Shown in pieces: positions 5,263 to 48,928 of a stretch of DNA of 64,000 bases. Each line of letters begins with the position of its first letter. Position 1 is the stretch's first letter. The stretch covers positions 434,001-498,000 of the forward strand of contig NZ_JAINDF010000003.1 in assembly GCF_023006325.1 (NCBI RefSeq). Reading direction: 5' to 3'. The notes under the pieces were generated by a model. It was not told where the DNA came from. It saw nothing but the letters and a program-made list of their open reading frames with translations, and made no database searches. The stretch is from Kordiimonas marina (GTDB lineage: Bacteria; Pseudomonadota; Alphaproteobacteria; Sphingomonadales; Kordiimonadaceae). The position numbers and the translations under genes are program-made.

Positions 5263-5847
5263 TCAGCCTTTCGCCCGCACGCCTATCTTGTCAGCATAAA
5301 AAGCCTGGATGGCGGCCAGGTCCGCGTCCTTGTCCCCAGTCGGGATGAATTGCGGGCCGATGCCGATTTCCCGCGTCCGGCTATCGAGATAGGCGAACTG
5401 GATCGGGACACCTGCTTCCACCGCAATGCGGTAAAAGCCGGTTTTCCATTTCTCCACCTTCGACCGCGTTCCTTCCGGGGCAAGCCCGAGGATAAGGGAA
5501 TCCCGCGTCCTGAAGGCTTCAACGGCCTCATTCACCAGGTCCGCGGCGTTTTTGGTTTCGCGTTCGACCGGGATGCCGCCAAGCCAATAGAACAGCTTCC
5601 CGAACGGGCCCTCGAACAAGGTATGTTTGCCAAAGAACCGTACCCTCAGCCGCAAAACGCCGACCACCGACATGAAAAGCGGGAAATCCCAGTTGCTGGT
5701 GTGGGGGGCTGCGATGGCAACGAGCTTGGCATCCGCAGGCACGGAGCCAACCAGCTTCCAGCGCCCACATGCAAGAATGACGCGGCCCAGCCAATAAAGC
5801 AGGCCGCTGAAAAAACGGCTGTCGTATATAAGGCGTTCTTCCGCCAC
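5263..5847 (-). CDS. Lysophospholipid acyltransferase family protein (PlsC-like)
   Basis: A 194-residue PlsC-domain acyltransferase. The catalytic H-x4-D motif is visible as HTSNWDF, and the acyl-acceptor binding motif as APEGTRS. Enzymes of this family transfer acyl groups to lysophosphatidic acid or related lipids at the cytoplasmic membrane. The protein is short for PlsC (usually ~240 aa) and lacks a clear N-terminal membrane helix beyond FFSGLLYWLGRVILACG. I prefer a GTG start at 5847 because AAGGGAAG lies just ahead of it; an ATG at 5949 would run through the intrinsic terminator at 5950-5984 and add low-complexity residues. It may instead be a broader-specificity acyltransferase. Confidence 0.8.
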   Translation of the reverse strand: MAEERLIYDSRFFSGLLYWLGRVILACGRWKLVGSVPADAKLVAIAAPHTSNWDFPLFMSVVGVLRLRVRFFGKHTLFEGPFGKLFYWLGGIPVERETKNAADLVNEAVEAFRTRDSLILGLAPEGTRSKVEKWKTGFYRIAVEAGVPIQFAYLDSRTREIGIGPQFIPTGDKDADLAAIQAFYADKIGVRAKG

Positions 5848-5949: not shown

Positions 5950-5984
5950 AAAAAAACAGGCGGACAGGGTGTCCCCTGTCCGCC
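5950..5984 (-). terminator. Intrinsic terminator (minus strand)
   Basis: Eleven-bp stem GGCGGACAGGG / CCCTGTCCGCC (5959-5969 and 5974-5984) with a four-base loop. On the minus strand it is followed at once by a run of seven T. It ends transcripts coming from the right, about 100 bp before plsC begins. Confidence 0.9.
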
Positions 5985-6075
5985 GTGTAAGTCCCGTGCC
6001 GACCGCTCAGGCAAACGGCCAACACCTAACTCGTATCGAGTACCTTCCAGATCTCAGGCAAAATCCTAAAGGCAC
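5950..6075 (-). ncRNA. Candidate sigma-54-dependent small RNA, about 125 nt
   Basis: Nothing in this interval looks coding: there is no ATG with a ribosome binding site on the minus strand. It is delimited by a sigma-54 promoter (6085-6100, predicted start near 6075) and the strong intrinsic terminator at 5950-5984. Inside, the 10-mer TTTGCCTGAG occurs twice (complement of 6006-6015 and 6053-6062), and a small hairpin ACTCG-ATA-CGAGT lies between the copies. This layout fits a trans-acting small RNA with duplicated seed sequences. The alternative is a regulated, attenuated 5' leader of plsC. I cannot match it to a known RNA family. Confidence 0.6.
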
Positions 6076-6084
6076 CCTACTATC

Positions 6085-6100
6085 AGCAAGGGGTGTGCCA
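6085..6100 (-). promoter_or_regulatory. Sigma-54 (RpoN) promoter, -24/-12
   Basis: The minus strand reads TGGCACACCCCTTGCT, an exact match to the RpoN consensus TGGCAC-N5-TTGCW, with GG and GC elements in the required spacing. Transcription should start near 6075 and run leftward. No coding sequence overlaps it. Confidence 0.85.
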
Positions 6101-6140
6101 GAAATAAATGACCTAATATTTCAATGGCTTAGAAATATGT

Positions 6141-6208
6141 GTTCCAAAATGGCACAGACTCGCCGCGCTATAATGTGTTTCATTTTGGTACGCGTCCCAT
6201 TTTGGGAC
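6141..6208. promoter_or_regulatory. Three copies of a 15-bp near-palindrome, likely enhancer-binding-protein sites
   Basis: Sites at 6141-6155, 6177-6191 and 6194-6208 fit GTNCCAAAATGRNAC in one orientation or the other; the third, GTCCCATTTTGGGAC, is symmetric apart from its central bases. Their centres lie about 73, 109 and 126 bp upstream of the predicted start, the normal range for upstream activator sites of a sigma-54 activator. No activator gene is in the window. Confidence 0.7.
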
Positions 6209-6222
6209 AGTTGACCGAAACC

Positions 6223-7179
6223 TTAGCCGACCAGCAGGCGCTCGTACGCAATCAGCAGCACGCCGATCACCGACTTGGAGAAGCCCGCGCTTTCAAGAAG
6301 CCGGGCAACGAGCTTCTTGTCCCCCTTGTCGAGCACCATTTCCATGACGTCATAGGGCCGGCCAAGCAGCACTGTCAGCGCCATGGTGAAAAGCCGGACA
6401 TTGTTGTTCTGGAGATAGTTGAGAAGCACGTCGGAGGTAAGCCCCTGCATCGCGTGCAGCTGGGTCAGATAATTTTCAATCTCGCTTAAGGGCGCCATTT
6501 CAAGCGTGCGCGAGAAAACCTGGCGGTTGGCCATCGATACCAGATAGGAAGCATAATCCGTCGCAAGACCGAATTTCTCGCTCAGATACTCGCCATACCG
6601 CTTGGAAACCTTGAAGATGATGCGTTCGACCACCGCCGCCGGCAGGTCGGCGCGGGCAGCCAGCATTTCCATCAGGCTGCGCTCTTCCGGGAACCGGTCG
6701 ACAACGCGGTTACAGCTCCGCTCAGACAGGGTCACCGTATCGTTGCCGACAAGGGCGGTGACCGCTTCCTGGCTGCCGATATCGCTGATCGCATAGCTGA
6801 CGGCTTCGGAAAGCCCGCGGCGCTGCGCAATTGCTTCCTGGGCGCCGCCGCTGCAATCCCGCACGATTTCTTCGAGGAAGGCATCATCGACAGCTTCGGA
6901 CGCCACAAGGAACGGCATGGAAATCTGGTCGATATCCTTGGCGAGATGAACAACGATATCCTTGGGCAGGAAGCTGCAGCTTTTCAGCTCACGTGACAGG
7001 GCTTCGCGCACGGACACGGAAACGTCCTCCACCAAAAGGCGGGCCAGGTCAACAGCATCCTTGCTGTCCCCCTCACCAGGTGAGCGCGCAAGAATACGGC
7101 CGACCTTCCGCGCGATTTCTACACGCGCCGCAAGATCGATATTGCGCAACTCTTCAGCGTCGTTCAGTTCAATGCTCAT
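6223..7179 (-). CDS. DUF2336 domain-containing protein
   Basis: A 318-residue soluble, all-helical protein that I assign to DUF2336, an alphaproteobacterial family with HEAT-like repeats and no established activity. Recognisable stretches are VSVREALSRELKSC and LPKDIVVHLAKDI near the N-terminus and helical repeats such as DLPAAVVERIIFKVSKRYGE in the middle. There is no signal peptide or membrane segment. Its stop codon is only 15 bp from the nearest of the three enhancer-like sites. It has no terminator of its own before the one at 5950-5984, so read-through could also extend through the small RNA locus. Confidence 0.8.
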   Translation of the reverse strand: MSIELNDAEELRNIDLAARVEIARKVGRILARSPGEGDSKDAVDLARLLVEDVSVSVREALSRELKSCSFLPKDIVVHLAKDIDQISMPFLVASEAVDDAFLEEIVRDCSGGAQEAIAQRRGLSEAVSYAISDIGSQEAVTALVGNDTVTLSERSCNRVVDRFPEERSLMEMLAARADLPAAVVERIIFKVSKRYGEYLSEKFGLATDYASYLVSMANRQVFSRTLEMAPLSEIENYLTQLHAMQGLTSDVLLNYLQNNNVRLFTMALTVLLGRPYDVMEMVLDKGDKKLVARLLESAGFSKSVIGVLLIAYERLLVG

Positions 7180-46762: not shown

Positions 46763-48713
<1,951 letters not shown>

Positions 48714-48928
48714 CATTGGTTTAAGGGTTCCGGTTCTACGCTTATGCGGGGGCCTGATCAAGCGGTTTCGGGGGTGGGTCGCGTGGTTGGGACGGCGTGA
48801 AAAGGTGTGCCGCGCGACTAAAGCGCCGCGAAACCGGCCAACTGTTGCGCCTGCAACAGCGTGGGAGACGCAACTGTTGCAAAGTTGGGCCTGAAGTGTT
48901 GCAGGCCGGAGGCGGTTTTGCGTCCCGC
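48714..48928. other. Intergenic region upstream of thiC with clustered GTTGC/GCAAC sites
   Basis: 215 bp between the GNAT stop and the riboswitch. GTTGC or its complement occurs five times (48844, 48853, 48870, 48876, 48898), making the dyads GTTGCGCCTGCAAC and GCAACTGTTGC. These may be hairpins ending the GNAT transcript or binding sites. No promoter with good hexamers was found, although thiC transcription must start here. Confidence 0.4.

Follow-up and report, generated by a model that had tools for sequence, protein, structure and literature searches.

The window, i.e., the whole stretch of 64,000 nucleotides from Kordiimonas marina that was analysed, carries on its minus strand a compact unit between genes for a PlsC-like acyltransferase and a DUF2336 protein. 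The minus strand of 5950-6100 is very probably a small RNA (sRNA) gene. The features of the locus are as follows.

5266..5847, minus strand: downstream neighbour, PlsC-like acyltransferase (PF01553), outside the sRNA unit
5950..6074, minus strand: putative sRNA of approx. 125 nt, start placed from the promoter
5950..5984, minus strand: intrinsic terminator, 11-pair stem (5984-5959) and seven T (5956-5950)
5996..6025, minus strand: hairpin 2
6006..6015, minus strand: loop 2, UUUGCCUGAG, identical to loop 1; complements the same gcvT aptamer over 10 nt
6030..6040, minus strand: small linker hairpin, CUCG-AUA-CGAG
6041..6074, minus strand: hairpin 1
6053..6062, minus strand: loop 1, UUUGCCUGAG; with its flanks, UUUUGCCUGAGA, it complements the gcvT glycine aptamer over 12 nt
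6086..6100, minus strand: sigma-54 promoter TGGCAC-N5-TTGC (-24/-12), TGGCACACCCCTTGC; TGGnA-N7-TGC is invariant in 25 aligned copies
6140..6156: activator dyad 3, TGTGCCATTTTGGAACA
6176..6192: activator dyad 2, CGTACCAAAATGAAACA, adjoining dyad 1
6193..6209: activator dyad 1, TGTCCCAAAATGGGACG (read on the minus strand)
6223..7179, minus strand: upstream neighbour, DUF2336 protein, outside the sRNA unit

An earlier note on this DNA had claimed an exact RpoN promoter, a strong terminator with seven T, approx. 125 nt without a plausible open frame and activator-type sites upstream, and all four are borne out. The promoter (TGGCACACCCCTTGCT, minus strand, 6085-6100) is the sole TGGCAC-N5-TTGCW in 64 kb; by chance, this pattern occurs on average 0.08 times per shuffle and was present in 8 of 100 shuffles. 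Transcription is predicted to start at approx. 6074, the best position as judged from the promoter. The terminator stem contains nine G-C pairs out of 11 and a loop of 4 nt, followed by seven T. Terminator-like sites as such are not in excess between 4000 and 8000 (5 versus 4.8 by chance); the other four have stems of 5-6 pairs, and one of them is part of the sRNA terminator stem. The RNA 5951-6073 (minus strand) folds at -62 kcal/mol (z = -6.2), a value equalled in none of 200 shuffles, and the window's copy offers no plausible open reading frame, the longest start-to-stop frame being 11 codons from a TTG. For plsC, a GTG start at 5847 is likelier than the mechanically assigned 5949, judging from the N-terminus of a homologue (L002). 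Elsewhere in the window, a TPP riboswitch that exceeds the Rfam gathering score is located at 48597-48716 (minus strand).

The earlier note had let its proposal depend on conservation in close relatives, and the covariance search of relatives found promoter, structure, loops and terminator kept, with covariation, and activator sites at like distances. Using blastn, four clear copies were found in the same genus, each with the promoter, two UUU(U)GCCUGAG hairpins and the terminator. A covariance model of the RNA alone, built from five sequences (R1), detected the sRNA in 17 of 19 genus genomes at E 2.8e-5 or better (five of these had built R1) and matched 34 of 196 order genomes at E 0.1 or better. 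After the matches had been read, 25 copies remained, all but one of them from the family; the exception comes from another family. Although R1 excluded the promoter, TGGnA-N7-TGC lies 26-30 nt before the first R1 position in all 25. Weak R1 matches without loops or promoter (L066-L069, L071) were dropped, and four weaker ones without loci were left out of the copy set. A diverged copy, L070, in which promoter and dyads are present and loop 1 is altered, was kept out of the alignment described below.

A second model that combines the promoter with both hairpins (R2) matched 26 of 29 family genomes at E 1.2e-9 or better, including 19/19 of the genus and two family genomes that R1 had missed; 24 of the 26 helped to build R2, G009 and G017 being the two that did not. 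The remaining three family genomes (G022, G024, G025) gave only weak R2 matches (best E 0.007-0.022), which were read as chance. Among 396 order genomes, R2 also found copies in three other families, namely in G034 and G040 (f7), G042 (f2) and G061 (f6), of which the training set held G034 only. Weaker, uncertain R2 matches with one GCCUGA loop each occur in G056 and G036 (f2). These two loci (L240 and L241, respectively) are possible diverged copies, with a TGGCA-N6-TTGC promoter and that single loop. In G039 (f6), the promoter is accompanied by two dyads and a single UUGCCUGAG loop. Among order matches at E 3.8e-4 or worse, the one read for copies (L242) was a chance match. In a scan of the class, 18 of 385 genomes matched R2 at E 0.01 or better, all except the K. 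marina genome itself at 6.1e-5 or worse, and none of the nine matches read out of 19 from other genomes had the promoter and two loops. The genus includes Kordiimonas laminariae, which carries a copy. A pattern scan of named genomes returned mostly repeats, with at least five real copies: K. laminariae, two uncultured Kordiimonas and two alphaproteobacterial MAGs. No report of the window's sRNA was found in a search of open papers.

Both hairpins of the sRNA display the loop UUU(U)GCCUGAG. In the MAFFT alignment A4 (25 copies, 24 of them distinct), the two-helix structure pairs 74% of cells versus 56.5% in shuffled alignments, double-change cells number 96 versus 39, and the covariation score is 0.58 versus 0.30, falling to 0.29 or less when partners are slid by one column. 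This last comparison is biased towards the unslid structure, which was drawn up manually from single folds because RNAalifold had performed poorly on five misaligned sequences. The fold z-score ranges from -3.1 to -9.5 in 25/25 copies, and the predicted folds leave GCCU free of pairing in 49 of 50 loops. Many copies outside the K. marina subgroup carry GAGUA between the hairpins, with three such motifs in L052.

The region upstream of the promoter is similarly constrained. A dyad was defined as TGTnnCAnnnTGnnACA, 17 bp, with at most two mismatches in ten fixed positions. By this definition, 30 homologous upstream regions hold 74 dyads, versus 2.5 in shuffles (sd 1.5, maximum 5, 50 shuffles); at least one is present in every region and two or more in 28 of them. 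They lie mostly at -107 to -123, -89 to -103 and -54 to -79 from the -24 box. The strict form, TGTNYCAWWWTGRNACA, was found at seven places in four genomes: five at the sRNA promoter, one at the promoter of a sister sRNA (see below) and one without a promoter. The third strict dyad of the K. marina genome has no sigma-54 promoter. Weaker operators may exist elsewhere, since the dyads at the sister promoters of G001 and G005 are imperfect and escape the strict form. The involvement of sigma-54 itself we infer from seven activators. Strong sigma-54 promoters worded TGGCACACCCCTTGC or close to it were also noticed at L005 near 1510 (G011:C4:328171) and at L006 and L007 near 1501; upstream of the L005 promoter there are, by eye, different dyads, TGTTCGGAAATGAACA.

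Ten genomes encode 72 sigma-54 activators, of which 66 entered a tree; the other six, with open frames of 219-378 aa, were left out. One clade of receiver-AAA-Fis proteins (479-539 aa) is represented in each of the seven of these ten genomes that bear the sRNA and in none of the sRNA-free ones (G022, G024, G025). The K. marina member, an orphan NtrC-type response regulator encoded at G000:C11:562948-564384, is the candidate regulator. In a scan of the order, it was found in 25 of 26 sRNA-bearing family genomes at E 7.9e-184 or better, the one miss being a genome that is 76% complete (G002), and it was absent at 1e-105 from the three sRNA-free family genomes. Outside the family, the regulator is present in G034, G036, G039, G040, G042 and G061; it was not found in G056, which is 78% complete. 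Its recognition helix is nearly constant, and its scores lie below the NCBI cut-offs for NtrC, LuxO, GlrR and the PEP-CTERM regulator. Inspection by eye places it beside a pntA-like gene in 4/4 family loci read; three of the four loci, and that of G042, have a murI-like gene next to it, and the short flanks read showed no adjacent kinase gene. The range of the regulator exceeds that of the RNA, with 207 of 396 order genomes matching at E 1e-105 or better (some perhaps paralogues). In many of these, including members of f4, f8 and f5, R2 found no convincing RNA, and either the RNA has diverged there or the regulator has other targets. A search for feedback of the sRNA on the regulator mRNA gave nothing consistent. 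The co-occurrence with the RNA in the family makes the orphan regulator the likely activator of the sRNA, and it would act by binding the dyads. The strict operators ascribed to it are nearly confined to sRNA genes, one or two in each genome.

The second of these genes lies outside the window in the K. marina genome (C20, near 170367), where a second dyad-sigma-54 promoter precedes another structured RNA (G000:C20, approx. 170367-170640; loci L294 and L297). This sister RNA shares operators with the window's sRNA. Its hairpins bear the loops CUCCGGCUGCCACC and GCUGCCAC, and a further, long hairpin bears UUGCCCCACCUCAAUYCG. An exact search for this last loop found it in seven of 396 order genomes, all in this genus (7/19). 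In G008 and G009, the second loop of the sister RNA is UUUGCCUGA, the same as in the window's sRNA, and from their sequences the two RNAs appear to exchange loop cassettes. By eye, the sister RNA adjoins a modA-like gene on its upstream side. It has no match in Rfam above chance.

The invariance of the loops directs attention to their complement, CTCAGGCAAA, which occurs at 119 places in six genomes, 11 in the sRNA itself and 108 elsewhere. When all 108 were scanned for the riboswitch signature AAACTCTCAGGCAAAAGGAC, exactly one place per genome carried it, in 6/6 genomes. At this place, Rfam RF00504 identifies a glycine aptamer with 65-73 bits (cut-off 32) in the six genomes, and in G000 and G011 a second aptamer also exceeds the cut-off. 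The gene behind the aptamer is gcvT in G000, G001 and G011, the three genomes in which the leader was read through by eye. The sRNA loops exactly complement the aptamer site over 10-13 nt in 12 of 12 loops from the six genomes; in K. marina, loop 1 does so over 12 nt and loop 2 over 10 nt. The second aptamer offers CTCAGG only. By our reading of the Rfam consensus structure, CUCAGGC is the 3' strand of P3, and AAAAGGA is the joining stretch. The complementary site sits in a helix that would have to open, which weighs against the pairing. The glycine pocket lies in P3a (PMC13104608). With the site in the P3 stem and the pocket in P3a, pairing of the sRNA would compete with glycine binding.

How much weight this match can bear depends on what is expected of the aptamer in any case. 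The aptamer core is conserved in glycine riboswitches generally, so its presence in six genomes is expected and uninformative alone; what is new is that an invariant sRNA loop is the exact complement of that conserved core. The riboswitch is the sole leader match in all six genomes. In coding sequence, CTCAGGCAAA recurs in a MutS-like gene (three genomes) and in a helicase-like gene (four genomes). Start-proximal sites are not enriched: 6 of 69 lie in sense near SD-preceded starts versus 3 of 69 in the control orientation, a test that covers 69 places, the last 39 of the 108 having been scanned for the riboswitch only. Dinucleotide shuffling of the loops gave binding to the leader as strong as that of the real loop in 0 to 44 of 300 trials, depending on the loop. 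In G000 (L407) and G001 (L274), CTCAGGCAAA lies 82-89 nt before an orthologous lipoprotein-like gene, whose leader is a possible second target in these two genomes. Sites 27 nt before the start of a gene that is TadG-like by eye (L260, G011) and 13 nt before that of one that is TadD-like by eye (L283, G013) are perhaps due to chance. On balance, the probability that the glycine riboswitch is a real target of the sRNA comes near to an even chance and falls slightly short of it.

The same sRNA, under the same switch, might instead pair with other mRNAs, the riboswitch match being a coincidence. Such a coincidence is conceivable because the aptamer core is conserved anyway, and other sites recur as well, e.g., the one before the lipoprotein-like gene. 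However, the riboswitch alone among leaders is matched in six genomes, and a 10-nt match is expected by chance about once in ten thousand, a rough, after-the-fact figure that sets approx. one hundred invariant leader 10-mers against a million possible 10-mers. We regard the coincidence as unlikely, though it is the strongest of the competing explanations. It is a good deal less probable that the twin loops act as a sponge that titrates an RNA-binding protein instead of pairing. Identical loops on stems of varying sequence, the general lack of enrichment of complementary sites near starts, and sister RNA loops that are related, and identical in two genomes, would all suit a protein ligand; however, an invariant RNA element contains the loop's exact complement, and each RNA provides only two sites. 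Moreover, we know of no protein that recognizes a UUU(U)GCCUGAG motif, which counts against a sponge.

The remaining alternatives place the function of the element in cis. The plsC gene lies on the same strand, approx. 100 nt past the terminator in the window, and is found 3' of the RNA in 17 of 22 other family loci tested, a set that leaves out the K. marina locus (which has plsC), G016, G027 and G028; the RNA might accordingly be read as a leader or attenuator of plsC. However, in the other five (G003, G006, G013, G019, G020), no plsC was found beside the RNA at tblastn E 1e-6 and a convergent gene comes next, and neither plsC nor DUF2336 was found at 4/4 loci outside the family. The association with plsC is thus not constant, and synteny led to rejection of this reading as highly improbable. 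Since the RNA is kept without plsC, and outside the family without either neighbour, the sRNA unit is independent of its neighbours. The earlier note had suggested that the RNA could link an RpoN signal to plsC, DUF2336 or distant targets; synteny speaks against the first two, and the distant targets have gained a lead in the gcvT glycine riboswitch. Least credible of all is that the conserved element is a mere promoter for downstream genes with incidental hairpins, since the rigidity of promoter and dyads, which such a reading would explain, is accompanied by covariation, a low fold z-score in 25/25 copies, a terminator within approx. 125 nt and the lack of any fixed downstream gene.

The preferred explanation is that the window encodes a trans-acting sRNA under a dedicated sigma-54 switch that pairs with the gcvT glycine riboswitch; taken as a whole, we give it an even chance. 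It builds on conservation, structure, invariant loops, promoter, dyads, co-occurrence of the regulator, independence from plsC and exact complementarity to the aptamer in 6/6 genomes, all read from sequence. In the proposed mechanism, the orphan NtrC-type regulator would be phosphorylated by a kinase, bind the three dyads, which lie 40-110 bp ahead of the -24 box, and open RNA polymerase-sigma-54 at TGGCAC-N5-TTGC. An RNA of approx. 125 nt would then be made, ending at the intrinsic terminator. Both of its hairpins would present UUU(U)GCCUGAG for pairing with CUCAGGCAAA, which belongs to aptamer 1 of the gcvT glycine riboswitch, and this pairing would remove one strand of the glycine-pocket helix. 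As a consequence, the leader would behave as if glycine-free, whatever the glycine level. An invariant target would also explain why the loop stays invariant while its surroundings drift. In its most specific form, the proposal describes a family of sigma-54 sRNAs that act in trans: their two invariant loops would invade the riboswitch helix that binds glycine and thereby give an orphan NtrC-type regulator the means to override glycine sensing at gcvT. This version we put forward tentatively, as the less probable side of the question.

The well-studied sigma-54 sRNA switches known to us are gammaproteobacterial, and they are hubs that govern carbon use, quorum sensing and the envelope. The earlier note could match the RNA to none of Qrr, GlmY and CrcZ, and Rfam agrees, also for GlmZ: the window's sRNA has no match at gathering and none beyond chance up to E = 5, the best being Pseudomon-1/ErsA (17.8 bits, E 0.33, cut-off 50). 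GlrR sites read TGTC-N10-GACA, close to the dyad of the window's sRNA. The system of GlmY and QseF/GlrR in Enterobacteriaceae resembles the present one in its sigma-54 sRNA promoter, a response regulator bound upstream and a second sRNA in the circuit (PMC6075780). In contrast to GlmY/GlmZ, the window's sRNA has another fold and other loops, and the candidate regulator reaches 345 bits versus the GlrR/QseF cut-off of 763. Similarly, Qrr and LuxO of Vibrionaceae provide an sRNA activated by sigma-54 and an NtrC homologue; here the candidate regulator scores 390 bits versus the LuxO cut-off of 800, there is no match to Qrr in Rfam, and, to our knowledge, twin identical loops are not a Qrr feature. 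CrcZ/CrcY of Pseudomonas and Azotobacter are likewise sRNAs under CbrB and RpoN; CrcZ has no Rfam match to the window's sRNA either, and it has an A-rich motif, from which the loops of the window's sRNA differ. The window's sRNA appears to work like GlmY/QseF, Qrr/LuxO and CrcZ/CbrB, yet by Rfam it is a member of none of them.

On the side of the target, two systems are instructive. In Neisseria gonorrhoeae, the sibling sRNAs NgncR_162/163 act in trans on a gcvT leader with a tandem glycine riboswitch and repress gcvT at the ribosome-binding site of this leader (PMC13104608). The window's sRNA, in contrast, complements the core of aptamer 1. In Escherichia coli, OmrA and a riboswitch meet on one mRNA, btuB, and OmrA pairs in the coding region rather than the aptamer (PMC11162775). 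In the literature searched, sRNAs on riboswitch mRNAs act elsewhere than at the aptamer core. We know of no sRNA that targets an aptamer core.

The window's sRNA matches none of the well-studied sigma-54 sRNA switches, and it is accompanied by a candidate regulator and a sister RNA; its invariant loop is complementary to a riboswitch core that is itself invariant. Should the pairing prove real, it would mean that an RNA acting in trans can shut off a metabolite sensor, namely by occupying the helix that binds the metabolite. Moreover, the sRNA offers a lead to the function of an unnamed regulator that is widespread in the order.
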